A stretch of DNA of 64,000 bases. It comes from Bacteroidales bacterium. GTDB lineage: Bacteria; Bacteroidota; Bacteroidia; Bacteroidales; P3. The DNA is taken from NCBI GenBank assembly GCA_017429685.1, contig JAFROL010000020.1, positions 116,624 through 180,623 of the forward strand. Reading direction: 5' to 3'. A program made the translations under genes and the position numbers. The notes under the pieces are model-generated. The model was not told the DNA's origin. It made no database searches and worked only from the letters and a program-made list of their open reading frames with translations. Below are positions 46,799-54,213 of this stretch, piece by piece (the first letter of the stretch is position 1; every line of letters begins with the position of its first letter).

Positions 46799-48685
46799 AT
46801 GAGAATCTTTACTTCAAAACGAATGATTGCACTGGTTTGCAGTGTATTTATCAGCTCCGCATTATTGCAATCCTGCGGTGATGGAGCATCAAAGGCGACT
46901 GACGAGGAAGTCGCCAAATTACAAAAAGAGCTGGACTCGACGATGCTGATGTACGCACAGCTGAAAGCCCAGAACTACGACTTTGACAAAGAAATGGCAT
47001 CGCGCGACAGCGTCATCAACGCTCAGGCTGCGGAAATCCAGAGCCTTATCAACCAGATGAACGGTGGCAAGAAATCCGTCAAGGTCGACAGCCAGCAGGC
47101 TGAAAAACAGCAGAAAGAGCTGCGCGAGAAAGAGAACACCATCAAGCAGTTGCAGAAGCAGCTGGACCAGCAGACGAAGCAGATCAACACACTGAAAGCT
47201 TCGTCGTCGAACAAAAACGCGACGAAAGACAACAGTGCGCAATACAAGAACCAGATTGCCCAGCTGCAAAAGCAGATAGCCCAGCAGGAGAAGCAGATCG
47301 GGGACCTGAAGAGCGACCTGAAAAAACACAAAAACAGCCCTTCGACGGCCAATTGCGACCAGGTGAAGAAGAACTATGAAGAGAGGGTTAGCGGCCTGAA
47401 TAGCGAAATCAAGACCTACAAAACAGAAATCGCCGATCTGAACAAACAGATCAAATCGCTGAAATCGGATTTTGCCAAATTGCAGTCGGCAACCCCCAAG
47501 ACCGATGAAAGCGCCACAGAGGAACTGAAAAAGACCAGAGCGGACCTGCGCCAACTGACGGTCGAACTTAACGAGTGCCGTAAGCTGAACACTCAGTATC
47601 AGAACGATGTGAAGGCTGCCAAGGACAACCTTGCAACGACCAAAGCCGAGCTCGAAGCCTCACAAACGCAGCTGAAATCGCTCCAGGCTTCGCAGGGCGA
47701 GGGCACAAAGGCCGAGCAGGCACTGCGTGGAGAGCTGGCAGCAATGACAGATAAAGAGGCCGCCAGCCGTGCCCGCAACGAAGAACTGCAGTCGCTGGTC
47801 AAGGAATGCGAAAACAGCAAACAGAGCCTTGAAGCCAACATCAGCGACCTGCGTAGCCAAGTGCTGGCAATGCAGACCCGCGTCGACCAGCTGACGAGCG
47901 AGAACGCCGCCCTTGCCAAGAACACGAACGGCAATCAGGAAGACGCCGAAGCCGCATCGCGCCTTATCGCCGACCTTTCGGCACAGGTGGAGAACCAGCG
48001 CAACCAGATCGCTTCGCTCCAGACAGAGCTGCAACAGACCAAAAACGAACTGGCCAATGCCCAGAAAGGCGGCAGCACAACCGTAACGAAGGGCAGCGTG
48101 AACCAGAAACTCAGTGAGCTGCAGGCTTTGTGCGACAGCTACAAGGCTGAGATAGAGCGTCTGCGCGCCGAGAACGACCAACTCAAGAGCGAGAATGCAG
48201 AACTGAAAGACAAGGTGTCGTCGAGCGCCAACCTTTTTGCCGAGAATGAGCGTCTGCAGCAAAAGGTGAAGATGGCTTCGGTGCTGGTCACCTCGGACAT
48301 CATAGTCACTCCCGGAAAAAGCGTCAAGATTGGCAACGTGGTGAAACCCACCAACAAAGCCTCGCAGACCAAATGCATTCGCTTGGACTGCCGCATACTT
48401 GACAACAATGTTGTGGATCCGGGTTCGATGACCATCTATGCACGTATTTCGGACGCTGCCGACCGCGCCATCTATAACGGCACGGCCGAGAGTTTCTCGT
48501 TCGACCTGGCAGGCACAACAATGCAGTATACCACCAAGCAGGACATCGAATTCACCGGCTCGGGCCGCACGCTGACAATGCTGTGGAAGAAGGGTGACAA
48601 CGTGGAGCTGACACCCGGTCTGTATTGGGTAAAACTCTATGCCAACGGCTACGAAATCGGCAAAGCCTCATTCAAACTCGATTGA
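46799..48685 (+). CDS. Coiled-coil lipoprotein
   Basis: The 628-residue protein has a lipoprotein signal (SALLQSC, Cys26) and one long coiled coil (about 35-490) of Lys/Glu/Gln heptads, with a single short break (CDQVKKNYEERV near 187). A C-terminal beta domain of about 125 residues (VIVTPGKSVKIGNVVKP ... YWVKLYANGYEIGKASFKLD) resembles an Ig-like fold. The coil would span roughly 60 nm if continuous, long enough to cross the periplasm, so it may link membrane and wall. Its stop is one base from the ATG of the MurL-MurD gene, implying coupled translation. Confidence 0.85.
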   Translation: MRIFTSKRMIALVCSVFISSALLQSCGDGASKATDEEVAKLQKELDSTMLMYAQLKAQNYDFDKEMASRDSVINAQAAEIQSLINQMNGGKKSVKVDSQQAEKQQKELREKENTIKQLQKQLDQQTKQINTLKASSSNKNATKDNSAQYKNQIAQLQKQIAQQEKQIGDLKSDLKKHKNSPSTANCDQVKKNYEERVSGLNSEIKTYKTEIADLNKQIKSLKSDFAKLQSATPKTDESATEELKKTRADLRQLTVELNECRKLNTQYQNDVKAAKDNLATTKAELEASQTQLKSLQASQGEGTKAEQALRGELAAMTDKEAASRARNEELQSLVKECENSKQSLEANISDLRSQVLAMQTRVDQLTSENAALAKNTNGNQEDAEAASRLIADLSAQVENQRNQIASLQTELQQTKNELANAQKGGSTTVTKGSVNQKLSELQALCDSYKAEIERLRAENDQLKSENAELKDKVSSSANLFAENERLQQKVKMASVLVTSDIIVTPGKSVKIGNVVKPTNKASQTKCIRLDCRILDNNVVDPGSMTIYARISDAADRAIYNGTAESFSFDLAGTTMQYTTKQDIEFTGSGRTLTMLWKKGDNVELTPGLYWVKLYANGYEIGKASFKLD

Positions 48686-48686
48686 A

Positions 48687-51416
48687 ATGTCCAATCAGGA
48701 AAAATACGACACTTTCCGTCAGATATACCGCAAGTTTGTCTACGAAAGTTATAATTATGATGTGCAGACTGACGGTCTGCACATCTCTTTTTGTTTCCGT
48801 CTGATTCCAAGCATCGACGCCAAGGAAGTCCAGCAAAACGCGGTTTTCAAGCCGACAGCTTTCTTCCCTTCGAGGCGCTTCCTTCATCCCAAGCTGTTGA
48901 GCAAAGACACACTTGATGCGCTGGTCTTCAACATAGGAATGATTGAGCTGGTCAGCTACTGGAAATGTTTTTGCCCTCCGGTTGTCGAGGTCAAGCCGTT
49001 CAGCCTTTCGGCCGATCAGGTGGCTTTCTGGAAGAAAATCTATTATAACGGCTTGGGGGAATTCTTCTACACAAACGGCATCAAAACCACTGTCGACGAA
49101 TTTATGACAATCTGTTCCGATCCGTCGACAGAATCTTTCGCGAAGTGCGACGGCCTTTTCAAACCGGAAGACGATTGTGACAACCACATTGTCCCTATCG
49201 GAGGCGGCAAAGACTCGGTGGTGACTCTTGAAATCCTTGGCGGAGGACCGGACACAGCTATGCAAAACACCAGTTCGCGTTCTTTGCCACTGATTATGAA
49301 CCCTCGAGGTGCAACAACAGAATGTATTCTCAAGGCTGGTTACACACTCGACAACGTCATAGTCATCAAGAGGACCCTCGACCCCTTGATGCTGGAATTC
49401 AACAAGCAGGGAGCCCTCAACGGCCACACGCCATTCAGCGCGATGCTGGCGTTCTATACACTTTTGGCGTCGGCGATGACGGGCAACCGTTGTCGCATTG
49501 CCCTCTCGAACGAGAGCAGTGCCAACGAAAGCACTGTGTCAGGAACCGATGTCAACCACCAGTATTCCAAAAGTTTTGAGTTCGAGGAAGATTTCAGAAA
49601 ATATGTGTCCTGCTATCTGTCGGGACAGTTCAACTACTATAGCTTTCTGCGGCCGCTGACGGAGCTGCAGATAGCGATGCTTTTCTCGCAATACACGCAC
49701 TATCACGGAGTTTTCAAGAGCTGCAATGTTGGCAGCAAGGAAGACATCTGGTGCGGCCATTGCGCCAAATGCCTTTTTGCATACATCATTCTCTCGCCGT
49801 TCGTCGAGCCCGAGCGGCTCAATGCCGTTTTCGGCAAGAATATGCTCGACGACGAAACGCTCAGGACCGAATTTGAGCAACTTACCGGCCACGCCGAGAC
49901 CAAACCGTTCGAATGCGTCGGCACGGTAAGCGAAGTCAACGACGCCCTTGCGATAACAATAGCCAAATGGTATGCCGGCGGCAACACGATGCCGTCGCTG
50001 ATTGCCTCATATCGTCCAAAGCAAATAAGTAATAATTTGTATTCAATACAAAAAGAGCACAATCTGGAGTCCGACGATGAGGCGAAACTCCTATCGACGC
50101 TGCATCAGAACACTCATATTGAAAGGCTTATGCCGTATCGCGATTTGTTCAATTTCTTTGTCGGACGCAAGGTGTTGATTGCCGGATACGGTCGCGAAGG
50201 ACAGAGCACCCATCGTCTGCTGCAAAAAATGTTTCCGACGCAGAGTTTCGATATCGCATCGAACAACGAAGAGATTGACACCGCGCTGAAACACAACCGT
50301 TACGACATCATCGTCAAATCGCCAGGCATTCCGACATTCTTTTTCGAAGGCAAATGCGATCTTGACACTATCACATCGCAGACCGACCTTTTCCTTCGCT
50401 ATAGCAATGTGAGCGTCGTTGGCGTCACCGGCACGAAAGGCAAGAGCACCACGTCGAATCTGATCTGCCATATCCTCAAATGCGCGGGTCGCGATGTCGT
50501 TTTGGCCGGAAATATCGGCATACCGCTCTTTGACATTCTCGACAAGTTGAGTCCAACAACGATTGTAGTTGCCGAGTTCTCGTGCCATCAGCTTGAAAAC
50601 ATTCATCGCTCACCTGAAACGGCAGTACTGCTCAACCTTTATCAGGAACATCTTGACCACTACCACGGTTACGATGACTACCAAAACGCCAAGATGCAGA
50701 TTGCTCTAAACCAACGGAAAGGGGACACCTTTATCTATTGCGCCGACAATGCCGATCTGGTGGCCAAAGTCAACGAATTCAAAACCAGAATATCATCACA
50801 AATAATCCCTTACACCTTCGACGACGCGCGTTCTGCAAACTTTTTGGCCAATGCCAAAAGTCCACTCCAGGGCGACCACAATTTGTCGAATTCCTACGCC
50901 GCCTGGCTGGCAGTGCGGCACTATGGAGTAGGGGAGGATACTTTCGTCAAAGCACTCGAAACATTTACCGGACTCGAACATCGCCTCGAGAAGGTCGCAA
51001 CTGTCAATGGGATAACTTATTATGACGACTCCATCTCCACTATTCCGCAGACAACCATCGCTGCCATCGAAGCACTCAAAAACGTTGACACACTGATTCT
51101 CGGAGGTTTTAATCGCGGTATAGACTACGGGCCTCTGGTTGATTACCTTCTCAGCGAGCCGCTGGGACGCAAGGTCCGCAACATCGTGCTTTTCGGAACG
51201 GCAGGAGAGGCTATCTCCAAAGGGTTGAAGGACAAGAATATGCTCTGTCATTTCGGGGCCGACTATTCTATGGCCGATGCCGTCCGTTTTGCCGCTGCCA
51301 ATACTGCACAGGGATGCATCTGCCTGCTTTCCCCGGCAGCATCGAGCTACGACCACTATAAAAACTTCGAATACAGAGGAGACGATTTTAAGCAAGAGGT
51401 TAAAAAGTTGAGATAA
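48687..51416 (+). CDS. MurL-MurD fusion: UDP-MurNAc-L-Ala-L-Glu epimerase fused to UDP-MurNAc-L-alanine--glutamate ligase
   Basis: The start is ATG 48687 (909 residues). Residues 1 to about 450 match MurL: KFVYESYNYD, WKKIYYNGLGEFFYTNG, VPIGGGKDSVVTLEIL near 170, SNESSANESTVSGTDVNHQ, SFLRPLTEL, WCGHCAKCLF and KPFECVG. Residues about 480-909 are MurD: Rossmann GRKVLIAGYGREGQST, P-loop VGVTGTKGKSTTSNLI near 577, HLDHYHGYDDYQNAK, YYDDSISTIPQTT and LSPAASSYDHYKNFEYRG. In Xanthomonas the two are separate genes; MurD2 adds L-Glu, and MurL then epimerises it to D-Glu using ATP. A fusion would pass the product directly between domains. L-Glu use by this MurD domain is inferred. Confidence 0.92.
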   Translation: MSNQEKYDTFRQIYRKFVYESYNYDVQTDGLHISFCFRLIPSIDAKEVQQNAVFKPTAFFPSRRFLHPKLLSKDTLDALVFNIGMIELVSYWKCFCPPVVEVKPFSLSADQVAFWKKIYYNGLGEFFYTNGIKTTVDEFMTICSDPSTESFAKCDGLFKPEDDCDNHIVPIGGGKDSVVTLEILGGGPDTAMQNTSSRSLPLIMNPRGATTECILKAGYTLDNVIVIKRTLDPLMLEFNKQGALNGHTPFSAMLAFYTLLASAMTGNRCRIALSNESSANESTVSGTDVNHQYSKSFEFEEDFRKYVSCYLSGQFNYYSFLRPLTELQIAMLFSQYTHYHGVFKSCNVGSKEDIWCGHCAKCLFAYIILSPFVEPERLNAVFGKNMLDDETLRTEFEQLTGHAETKPFECVGTVSEVNDALAITIAKWYAGGNTMPSLIASYRPKQISNNLYSIQKEHNLESDDEAKLLSTLHQNTHIERLMPYRDLFNFFVGRKVLIAGYGREGQSTHRLLQKMFPTQSFDIASNNEEIDTALKHNRYDIIVKSPGIPTFFFEGKCDLDTITSQTDLFLRYSNVSVVGVTGTKGKSTTSNLICHILKCAGRDVVLAGNIGIPLFDILDKLSPTTIVVAEFSCHQLENIHRSPETAVLLNLYQEHLDHYHGYDDYQNAKMQIALNQRKGDTFIYCADNADLVAKVNEFKTRISSQIIPYTFDDARSANFLANAKSPLQGDHNLSNSYAAWLAVRHYGVGEDTFVKALETFTGLEHRLEKVATVNGITYYDDSISTIPQTTIAAIEALKNVDTLILGGFNRGIDYGPLVDYLLSEPLGRKVRNIVLFGTAGEAISKGLKDKNMLCHFGADYSMADAVRFAAANTAQGCICLLSPAASSYDHYKNFEYRGDDFKQEVKKLR

Positions 51417-51440: not shown

Positions 51441-52529
51441 ATGAAAGATATCAAAGAAATCATAGATATTCGCCACCAGCTCCACTCCAATCCGGGAATT
51501 TCCGGATCCGAGGAATACGCGCACAATCTGATTGTCAAATTCCTATCGCAGCTGCATCCCGACGAGCTGTGCACAAATGTTGGTGGCTATGGTGTTGCGG
51601 CATACTGGAAATCGACCGTCAAAGAAACAAAAACCATTGCCTTTCGCGCCGATATCGACGCGCTGCCCAGCGGACACCGTTGCGGACACGACGGCCATAC
51701 CGCCATAATGCTACGCTTTGCCGAGATGGCTTCCGCCGCAGAAAGACCTTACAATCTGCTCGTTTTCTTCCAGCCAGAAGAGGAGACCGGCAAAGGCGCC
51801 AAGAAGATAGTCGAAAGCGGCATTCTCGACAGGTTCAATGTCGATGCCGTCTTCGGTCTGCACAATCTGCCTGGCTATCCCGAAGGCACAGTCGTATTGA
51901 ATGATGGCACTTTCGCTGCAGCATCTTGTGGAGTCATTTACCGCTTCAAGGGACGTACCACTCACGCCTCCACACCCGAAATGGGAATCAACCCAGGCCG
52001 TGCAATAGCCTCTGTCATCGAGCGTTTCGACGCCCTTAACCGCAAGAATTCCGATCCCGACCAGTTCCGTCAGTCTACTCTTATATGCTGTCGTATCGGC
52101 GAAGAGGCCTTCGGCACCTCGGCGGGCTATGGCGAAGTGATGTTCACCCTCCGTGCATTCTCGAACTATGTTATGGCCGAGCTGATGAAAGAGGCCGACA
52201 CCATAGTCACCGACGTCGCAAGCCAATGGAACCTTGTGCTTGAAAAACAGATGCGTGAGCCATTCAGTGCGACCGAAAACACTTCAGGTTATGTCCGTCA
52301 GTTAGATCAAATCCTTTCACCTTGCTTCGATGTCGTAAATATCACGAAACCATTCCGATGGAGCGAGGATTTTGCAGAATACCTGAAAGTGCGTCCCGGC
52401 GCCTTTTTCGGTATCGGCAGCGGCTTGCAACAAGTCGAGTTGCATCATCCGGACTATGATTTCCCCGACACTATCATCGACACTGCCGCCAACGTCTTTT
52501 TCAAGATATTTAATAATGTGAAACTATAA
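51441..52529 (+). CDS. M20 family amidohydrolase
   Basis: The 362-residue metal-dependent hydrolase begins at ATG 51441, right before KDIKEIIDIRHQLHSNPGIS. Motifs are FRADIDALP near 77, CGHDGHTAIMLRFAE near 89 and FFQPEEETGKGAKKI near 116, plus HNLPG. These match hippurate/N-acyl-amino-acid hydrolase and succinyl-DAP desuccinylase-like enzymes. It lies 24 bases after the MurL-MurD gene, so a role on wall peptides or on a diaminopimelate derivative is possible but not shown. Confidence 0.92.
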   Translation: MKDIKEIIDIRHQLHSNPGISGSEEYAHNLIVKFLSQLHPDELCTNVGGYGVAAYWKSTVKETKTIAFRADIDALPSGHRCGHDGHTAIMLRFAEMASAAERPYNLLVFFQPEEETGKGAKKIVESGILDRFNVDAVFGLHNLPGYPEGTVVLNDGTFAAASCGVIYRFKGRTTHASTPEMGINPGRAIASVIERFDALNRKNSDPDQFRQSTLICCRIGEEAFGTSAGYGEVMFTLRAFSNYVMAELMKEADTIVTDVASQWNLVLEKQMREPFSATENTSGYVRQLDQILSPCFDVVNITKPFRWSEDFAEYLKVRPGAFFGIGSGLQQVELHHPDYDFPDTIIDTAANVFFKIFNNVKL

Positions 52530-52590: not shown

Positions 52591-54213
52591 ATGAAAAAAT
52601 CCGTTACAATCCTTTTTGCTATTTTCCTCGCTTTCGGCATAGCCAATGCGCAGGATTTCAACTCACAGCTTGTCGACGGACAGTCCTGCACCTCTATTAT
52701 GGTTGGCAAACAGGCTTCCACCGACGGCTCGGTTATTACATCCCACACTTGCGACGGCCGCTATCGCACTTGGATGACAATCGAGCCTGCTGCCGACCAC
52801 AAGGCTGGCGAAGTCCACACTGTGCGTAAAGGCACTATGCATACCGCTTTCCGCAACGACACCACAGGTGTCCGCACAGCAGGAACCATACCTCAGGTGC
52901 GCCACACTTACGCCTACCTCAATACGGCCTATCCCTGCCTGAACGAGAAGCAACTCGCAATAGGCGAGACCACTTTTGGTGGACCCGACACGCTGGTCAA
53001 CAAGAACGGAATGTTCCTTATCGAAGAACTTGAACGCGTGGCCCTTATGCGTTGCGACAACGCCCGCGACGCTATCCGCCTCATCGGACGGCTCATCAAG
53101 GAATACGGCTATGGCGACGGTGGCGAATGCATCACCATTGCCGACCGTAATGAAGTATGGCAGATGGAAATACTTGGCGAGGGTCCAGACCGTATCGGAG
53201 GCGTATGGGCTGCACAGCGCGTCCCCGACAACCACGTCGCCGTCAGTGCCAACATCCCGCGCATAGGTCGTCTGCAACGCAATAATCCCGAGTATTTTAT
53301 GTGTTCCGACAATATCGAACAGGTGGCTCGGCGCTATGGCCTTTGGGATGGCAAGGACGAATTTGTATTCTGGAAAGCCTTCAACGCAAGCTATGCCAAC
53401 GGCAAAAACTTCCGCGAACGCGAATTCTTCATTCTCAACTCCTTGGCACCATCGCTGGGACTTTCGATGGATATGGCAGAATTGCCTTTCTCGGTCATCC
53501 CCGACCAGAATGTCGACGTCACCGACGTGATGCAGCTGCTGCGTTCCACCTACGAAGGTACCGATCTTGATATGTGCCGCAATATCAAGTCCGTAACCAA
53601 GCGTCGCCTCAAGGACGGAACCGTTGTCAACGACACTGTCATCAGTCCTATAGCAAATCCTTGGATGGGTGGCAATATGCAGAGCACGCTCAACCTGTTG
53701 CAGCCCGGCACTGTCGAGTTTCGCCGCACCGTCAGCGTGGCTTGGTGCTCCTATTCATTTGTTGCTCAGCTTCGCGACTGGCTTCCCGACGAGGTGGGTG
53801 GCGTCTGCTGGATGGCTGTCGACAATCCAGGCCAGAGTCCGCGTGTACCCGTATTCTGTGGCAACAGCCGTCTGCCTCAGGCGTATAGCCTCTGCGGACA
53901 CAAGAAATACGACGACAATGCCGTCTTGTGGCAATACCGCAAGGCAAACAAGTTGGCAACGGTTGCCTGGCAGCGTACAAAAGACATAATGTCAAAAGAA
54001 ATCATAGACCAGGAGCAGAAAGCCATTAACGGCCTTGCCGAACTCCAAAACAGCATCAAAGCCCTCAAAGCACGCGAAACCGAGGACTACGACCCCAAAG
54101 CCCAGATAGCCAATCTGCTGGACAACTACACCTTCCGCATCTACGACAACACCACCTACGCCTGGCGTCAACTCGAAGCACGCTTTTGGCAGATGTTTGG
54201 AAGCGGATTTTAA
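52591..54213 (+). CDS. C69 family dipeptidase, exported
   Basis: The ATG of a clear signal peptide (MKKSVTILFAIFLAFGIANA) is chosen. The 540-residue protein shows the C69 (PepD) pattern: presumed nucleophile Cys33 in GQSCTSIMVGKQASTDGSVITSH, FGGPDTL, ALMRCDNARDAIRLIGRLIKEYGYGDGGECITIADRNEVWQMEILG and AVSANIPRIG. It hydrolyses dipeptides and would work in the periplasm. It is the last gene of the cell-wall cluster and is convergent with the LEA-type lipoprotein; an inverted repeat separates them. Confidence 0.93.
   Translation: MKKSVTILFAIFLAFGIANAQDFNSQLVDGQSCTSIMVGKQASTDGSVITSHTCDGRYRTWMTIEPAADHKAGEVHTVRKGTMHTAFRNDTTGVRTAGTIPQVRHTYAYLNTAYPCLNEKQLAIGETTFGGPDTLVNKNGMFLIEELERVALMRCDNARDAIRLIGRLIKEYGYGDGGECITIADRNEVWQMEILGEGPDRIGGVWAAQRVPDNHVAVSANIPRIGRLQRNNPEYFMCSDNIEQVARRYGLWDGKDEFVFWKAFNASYANGKNFREREFFILNSLAPSLGLSMDMAELPFSVIPDQNVDVTDVMQLLRSTYEGTDLDMCRNIKSVTKRRLKDGTVVNDTVISPIANPWMGGNMQSTLNLLQPGTVEFRRTVSVAWCSYSFVAQLRDWLPDEVGGVCWMAVDNPGQSPRVPVFCGNSRLPQAYSLCGHKKYDDNAVLWQYRKANKLATVAWQRTKDIMSKEIIDQEQKAINGLAELQNSIKALKARETEDYDPKAQIANLLDNYTFRIYDNTTYAWRQLEARFWQMFGSGF

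Follow-up and report, generated by a model that had tools for sequence, protein, structure and literature searches.

A MurL–MurD fusion protein in Bacteroidales that probably carries both steps of the MurD2/MurL route to D-glutamate

A MurL–MurD fusion in one reading frame

We analysed a 64,000-nucleotide stretch of DNA from a Bacteroidales bacterium (GenBank assembly GCA_017429685.1, contig JAFROL010000020.1, positions 116,624 to 180,623; hereafter the window), in which a single open frame encodes a MurL-like half followed by a complete MurD ligase (Table 1). An original prediction, made from the sequence alone, had proposed that this protein unites both steps of a post-ligation route to D-glutamate (D-Glu), in which L-Glu is joined to the cell-wall precursor and epimerized afterwards. 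This route is known from separate proteins, the MurD2/MurL pair: both reactions have been shown for Xanthomonas oryzae XOO_1320/XOO_1319 and, by in vitro assay, for Micromonospora and Salinispora orthologs (PubMed Central (PMC) articles PMC8788868 and PMC5808125).

The fusion is confirmed as real, with a full MurD in the C-terminal part as had been claimed. Besides that of the window, 36 distinct loci carry the same MurL–MurD fusion and can be aligned on both sides of the junction, with 43–236 residues between the domain matches found by phmmer. An assembly or frameshift artefact, which the 52 contigs of the source assembly might have favoured, has next to no probability given these fused relatives, and we dismissed it.

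Table 1. Features of the fusion, its neighbours and the related orphan domain. Residue numbers refer to the fusion protein; roles of the specificity positions are from PMC8788868.
Feature	Position	Strand	Remarks
MurL–MurD fusion, single 909-residue frame	48687-51416	+	
MurL-like half, residues 1-440	48687..50006	+	
GGGKDS, residues 172-177, SGGxDS-type pyrophosphate-binding loop	49200..49217	+	Invariant in 20/20 aligned relatives
C346-x9-C356xxC359xxC362, near QueC zinc motif	49722..49772	+	Four Cys invariant in 20/20
Interdomain linker, residues 441-486, approximate boundaries	50007..50144	+	Poorly conserved in alignment A1
Complete MurD ligase domain, residues 487-909, predicted L-Glu type (MurD2-like)	50145..51413	+	
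E654, equivalent of E. coli MurD D182 (MurD2 E197)	50646..50648	+	From alignment
I783, equivalent of E. coli MurD K319	51033..51035	+	From alignment
R810, equivalent of E. coli MurD K348 (MurD2 R358)	51114..51116	+	From alignment
Coiled-coil lipoprotein-like gene	46799..48685	+	Stop one base before fusion ATG; lipobox by sequence reading
M20 amidohydrolase, operon partner	51441..52529	+	Pfam M20, E 2.9e-24
C69 dipeptidase, last gene of conserved order	52591..54213	+	Pfam C69, E 1.4e-58
Orphan MurD C-terminal domain, outside window	L085:3979-4524 (G000:C46:13227-13772)		Between mraY and ftsW

Substrate-selecting residues of the MurD half

In MurD2, E197 and R358 determine the choice of L-Glu, and a K319T change makes E. 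coli MurD accept L-Glu (PMC8788868). We compared the corresponding positions in an alignment of 129 MurDs (that of the window, 35 fused, 63 adjoining murL and 30 from division and cell wall (dcw) clusters), from which four short sequences (L027, L103, L112 and L145; such handles are our own) and MurDs not beside murL were left out. The D182, K319 and K348 positions are E, I and R in all 99 MurL-linked MurDs, fused or adjacent and including the window's, and D, K and K in all 30 dcw-cluster MurDs. In place of the residues of a canonical MurD, the window's MurD half therefore has Glu, Ile and Arg; it is a complete MurD-family ligase with the Glu (E654) and Arg (R810) of a MurD2. Both sets retain the lysines of the P-loop and of the carbamylation site as well as the remaining catalytic positions that were compared (numbered by the alignment), except for H301 in two rows. 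Arg alone would not decide specificity, because Streptococcus mutans MurD has Arg at the R358/K348 position yet uses D-Glu (PMC8788868). Taken together, the residue types at the three positions predict that the MurD half selects L-Glu, as had been proposed. In a quick tree, MurL-linked and dcw MurDs (47 versus 30 rows) lie on opposite sides of one branch with a Shimodaira–Hasegawa-like approximate likelihood-ratio support of 100, indicating that MurD2 here is not a local dcw enzyme altered in place, unless the root falls inside one of the sets.

A predicted QueC/QatC-type site in the MurL half

NF041275, the NCBIfam equivalog model of Xanthomonadales MurL, matches residues 76–423 of the fusion (E 7.6e-70). 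In the broad sense of the family, a MurL that accompanies a MurD2 in a genome in which no D-Glu synthesis gene was found, this half is a MurL. A structure alignment with the complete fusion was taken up by MurD-type and related chains, and MurL was therefore modelled separately; the model adopts the fold of QueC-like PP-loop enzymes, of the QueC/QatC type. QueC has an SGGxDS-type loop and a cysteine motif of the form C(x)8CxxCxxC (PMC13329287), from which MurL differs by one letter (GGGKDS) and by one spacer residue (C-x9-CxxCxxC). Searched against PDB sequences, a MurL profile found TtuA at E 0.003, with SGGKDS aligned to GGGKDS, an unrelated protein at 0.5 and nothing else. The Pfam QueC family PF06508 gave no match above its cut-off (best E 0.058; 5 of 20 members), and for the Qat anti-phage system PADLOC matched no family with either query.

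On the basis of the model, we predict that MurL is an ATP enzyme of the QueC/QatC type whose cysteine motif comes close to that of QueC, and such an ATP site would suit the known ATP-to-AMP chemistry of MurL. QueC and QatC (PMC13329287, PMC13279940) resemble it in the modelled fold and, apart from the differences just given, in the loop and the C-x8/9-CxxCxxC motif; unlike them, MurL acts on a glycopeptide and inverts a centre. Neither of the two QueC/QatC papers mentions MurL. QueC adenylates a carboxylate, and ATP-dependent chemistry at a carboxylate is a further likeness between the two enzymes.

MurL and MurI were not found together

Among named organisms, those closest to the source genome (2.65 Mb, 96% complete) are uncultured Bacteroidales, many of rumen or gut origin. 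The source genome has seven Mur-ligase matches, named by sequence reading as MurE, MurF, MurF-Alr, the fusion, MurC, Mpl and a FolC-like protein. None of the seven is a second complete MurD, in line with the suggestion that another murD might be lacking; what the dcw cluster retains is the C-terminal domain of MurD as an orphan. The predicted lack of the glutamate racemase MurI held too: the Asp/Glu racemase family PF01177 was found neither in the source genome nor in any of the 114 genomes of its family, and the same search was positive in 10 of 14 control genomes. For D-amino-acid transaminase, which it had been proposed to check, none of 21 MurL genomes, the source genome included, reached the family cut-off; the best match of the source genome is a 345-residue frame at E 4.9e-11. 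MurL was found in 111 of the 114 family genomes, although in G022, G070, G106 and G107 (by best E) the matches are short and partial. The fusion is the sole route to D-Glu found in the source genome and, together with its split versions, the sole one found in the family. As an observation apart, the source genome encodes a MurF-like protein (L002, G000:C18) separate from the MurF-Alr fusion (L003, G000:C45), both by sequence reading.

To place the family in its order, which named relatives indicate to be Bacteroidales, we used 256 genomes drawn evenly. PF01177 alone was rejected as a MurI marker at this level, for it also matches proteins of about 230–260 residues, presumably aspartate racemases; TIGR00067 separates the two racemase groups, no match falling between E 4e-21 and 2e-29, and MurI was called at E < 1e-25. 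MurL occurs in 82 and MurI in 162 of the 256 genomes, both together in none and neither in 12 (Fisher p 1.7e-54, which is overstated since related genomes are not independent). By family codes, MurL is present in 39 families and MurI in 68, with both in none and neither in two. One of the genomes in which neither was found, G342, has a second MurD at a contig start, and murL may therefore be missing from its assembly. Another genome, G125 (family code f13; 98% complete, 2.1 Mb), has no MurI, MurL or MurD above cut-off and perhaps no peptidoglycan synthesis of its own.

Among 47 named loci found by query, 13 are clostridial (Lachnospiraceae or other Clostridia, with Blautia sp. An249 among them), and in all 13 murL and murD are separate neighbours. 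None of the 47 named genomes, for which completeness is not given, reached the MurI cut-off.

An orphan MurD domain in the dcw cluster

The dcw cluster of the source genome reads murE, mraY, a 181-residue frame, ftsW, murG, murC and ftsQ (names by sequence reading). This frame, which occupies the usual place of murD, consists solely of the C-terminal domain of MurD (dcw-MurD profile E 2.2e-32; Pfam Mur_ligase_C E 1.2e-5, slightly under cut-off). Matches to this orphan domain occur in 113 of the 114 family genomes and are missing from one: 107 have a separate frame of 168–236 residues (one weak, G091), two have frames of 315 and 364 residues, three match through the fused MurD only and one through an unclear 424-residue frame. 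Of 41 loci checked, excluding L161, which starts at a contig end, 40 have the orphan between mraY and ftsW. Fold positions (for example D329, W339, G380, F390, S423, P424 and F442) are identical in all 30 family copies compared, and the active-site positions H313, S330, K331, T333, K358 and S428 (L133 numbering) are altered in most or all of them; orphan copies of nine other families still have most active-site positions. The ratio of nonsynonymous to synonymous substitution rates (dN/dS) is 0.05–0.26 in those 33 of 36 pairs for which dS was computable; in many of them dS is near saturation. Low dN/dS together with lost active-site positions indicates that the orphan is under selection and, in this family, not as an enzyme. 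Passive retention of the stretch for the sake of ftsW translation would leave the low dN/dS unexplained.

Outside the window's family, 78 MurL genomes show, among the matches listed, a complete D-Glu-type MurD besides MurD2 in 42, only the C-terminal MurD part in 24, a dcw MurD cut by a contig end in two (G209 and G159) and neither form in 10. An apparent N-terminal-only MurD in G159 was discarded as the gene cut in this way. Loci with MurD2/MurL, a complete D-Glu-type MurD and no MurI found include L126, L131, L133, L138, L143 and L199–L228. In the 35 complete dcw MurDs from MurL genomes that were examined, no active-site position has changed, and 0–8 of 108 invariant columns differ, compared with 0–7 in 25 controls (leave-one-out). 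The profile match runs through stop codons in 7 of the 24 short forms, and in three of these that were examined the open frame starts after the stops. Both complete and short dcw MurDs occur within genus codes g15, g54 and g115, and in each the short form lies between mraY and ftsW in at least one member. These genera with both states suggest repeated truncation to the same domain; on the orphan-domain tree the unconstrained topology needed seven changes, and a single origin is not rejected (approximately unbiased test, p 0.87).

Neighbouring genes and fusion history

The M20 and C69 hydrolases named as operon partners in the original prediction have the Pfam matches given in Table 1. Of 55 loci examined, 23 show the order lipoprotein, murL-murD, M20, C69 (two of these being the same genome region in two copies), and 10 more show murL-murD-M20 lacking both flanking genes. 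One close relative encodes a MurL–MurD–M20 triple fusion in a single 1273-residue frame (G056, L144:2302-6120, minus strand) and another a 920-residue MurD–M20 fusion (G061, L062/L150, L150:6813-9572, plus strand). Together with the conserved order, these fusions tie the M20 hydrolase to the pathway; our guess is that it serves in the disposal or salvage of Glu-containing peptides.

The 113 loci, less 5 duplicates, comprise 36 with the fusion, 66 in which murL and murD stand side by side and 6 in which murL has no MurD next to it. The side-by-side genes share a strand, with stop-to-stop frames ranging from 121 bases overlapping to 171 apart. For five of the six non-adjacent loci (L230–L234, from G068, G048, G109, G112 and G221), no MurD was found in stretches of 8.5–11.5 kb around murL; the pair has moved apart in a few lineages. 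At the sixth (L010, longer view L062/L150), MurD lies 2.2 kb further on. A tree of 101 rows (100 loci and the window; the 6 loci lacking an adjacent MurD and 2 whose MurD is partial were excluded; direction unpolarised) has at least five changes between fused and split states, at least four of them forced by strong branches, whereas shuffling the labels gives about 30. Fused proteins of 1043–1148 residues from other genera of the family (L145–L148 and L151) have extra stretches, 100–236 residues between the domain matches and up to 263 before MurL in L145.

Discussion

We reason, with a probability of roughly 0.9, that the fusion is a bifunctional enzyme of the MurD2/MurL route. The MurD half would attach L-Glu to the cell-wall precursor, and the fused protein would then convert it to the D-form; after ligation, the MurL domain would adenylate the alpha-carboxylate of the terminal L-Glu. 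An adenylate mechanism has been proposed for MurL (PMC8788868), and its placement on a QueC-type site in the MurL half follows from our model. The L-Glu-type residues, the absence of a detected MurI and the lack of co-occurrence of MurL and MurI in 256 genomes all support the post-ligation pathway. Several points weigh against it. To our knowledge, no Bacteroidota MurL or MurD2 has a measured activity. The MurL half scores 235.6 bits against a curated NF041275 cut-off of 700, which leaves it outside that equivalog, and none of the 114 family genomes reaches the cut-off; the target of the fold comparison was itself a predicted model. The genomes of one order are not independent, and sub-threshold racemase-model matches occur in 17 of the 82 MurL genomes (E 1.5e-5 to 4e-21) and in 3 of the 47 named genomes. 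That 11 of the 12 genomes without MurL and MurI have a full MurD implies an error of a few percent in the absence calls. The highest-scoring transaminase matches, in G154, G301 and G135 (96–140 bits against a cut-off of 277), all come with a full second MurD, and in 6 of the 72 unfused loci MurD does not adjoin murL.

The MurD half could instead be an ordinary D-Glu ligase and the MurL half do something else, with D-Glu coming from another enzyme or from the gut. The lack of an assay for this clade, those 11 genomes with a full MurD and neither MurI nor MurL found (G342 among them) and the complete D-Glu-type MurDs in 42 of the 78 genomes outside the family would all fit. This is nevertheless very improbable in light of the three L-Glu-type positions in 99 of 99 MurDs, the 0 of 256 genomes with both MurL and MurI and the 0 of 21 reaching the transaminase cut-off. 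The benefit of the fusion is a separate matter. With frames close or overlapping in 66 of the 72 unfused loci, the loss of a stop could have joined them with neither functional gain nor hand-over of the intermediate, and the four or more changes of state imply that the split form works too; the MurE–MurF fusion of Bordetella, moreover, has been described as an elongated protein whose active sites lie far apart (PMC6420597). Two weak arguments oppose such neutrality: the fused state occurs in six of the family's ten genus codes and once outside it (L054/G209), and a third partner has joined in one lineage. We consider the chances of a neutral fusion to be even. For the bifunctional enzyme, the hand-over of the intermediate between the fused halves is our inference, and the channelling of L-Glu foreseen in the original prediction is plausible.

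For the orphan, we tentatively propose, at somewhat less than even odds, that the MurD C-terminal domain has a second, non-catalytic job: once MurD2/MurL had taken over catalysis in Bacteroidales, the dcw murD would have lost its UDP-MurNAc and ATP domains, seemingly more than once and near the same point, and the C-terminal domain would have remained between mraY and ftsW with its active site erased, perhaps as a scaffold or regulator in a MraY/MurG/FtsW complex. MurG binds MurD in Thermotoga (PMC6420597), which makes a scaffold role worth testing.

Like the X. oryzae pair, the fusion combines a homologous MurL with a MurD bearing the E and R specificity residues, and it shares with that system, in which the genes are neighbours, the absence of MurI; it differs in being one polypeptide, in its Bacteroidales host and in a MurL far under the Xanthomonadales cut-off. 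Within MurD, the K319 position is Ile, and the L416 position is Tyr (Phe in X. oryzae MurD2). Other Mur fusions (MurE-MurF, MurB-MurC, MurG-MurC, MurC-Ddl and MraY-MurG; PMC6420597, PMC4803751), and the MurF-Alr of the source genome, likewise place two peptidoglycan precursor enzymes on one chain, with intermediate passing proposed, but none contains MurD, and in none is a ligase coupled to the L-Glu route's epimerase. The pathway and Mur fusions are thus already known as kinds. In the open-licence PMC literature, we found no title or listing pointing to a MurL–MurD fusion or to MurL in Bacteroidota, and nothing on a truncated dcw MurD; neither the combination, nor its spread within Bacteroidales, nor the orphan came to light there. 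The MurD2/MurL review names Gammaproteobacteria, Alphaproteobacteria and rare actinobacteria genera and lacks the string "bacteroid" (PMC8788868).

Antibiotics can be aimed at the supply of D-Glu, and organisms that use the MurD2/MurL route should be unaffected by inhibitors of MurI. MurL now extends to 82 of 256 Bacteroidales genomes and 13 named Clostridia, groups that the pathway review does not name. MurL has been described in the literature as having no known domains; the QueC-type model would provide it with an active site that can be tested, and the fusion offers one protein in which the hand-over between L-Glu ligation and epimerization is testable. Finally, the orphan MurD domain is a natural experiment on whether a Mur ligase plays a structural part.
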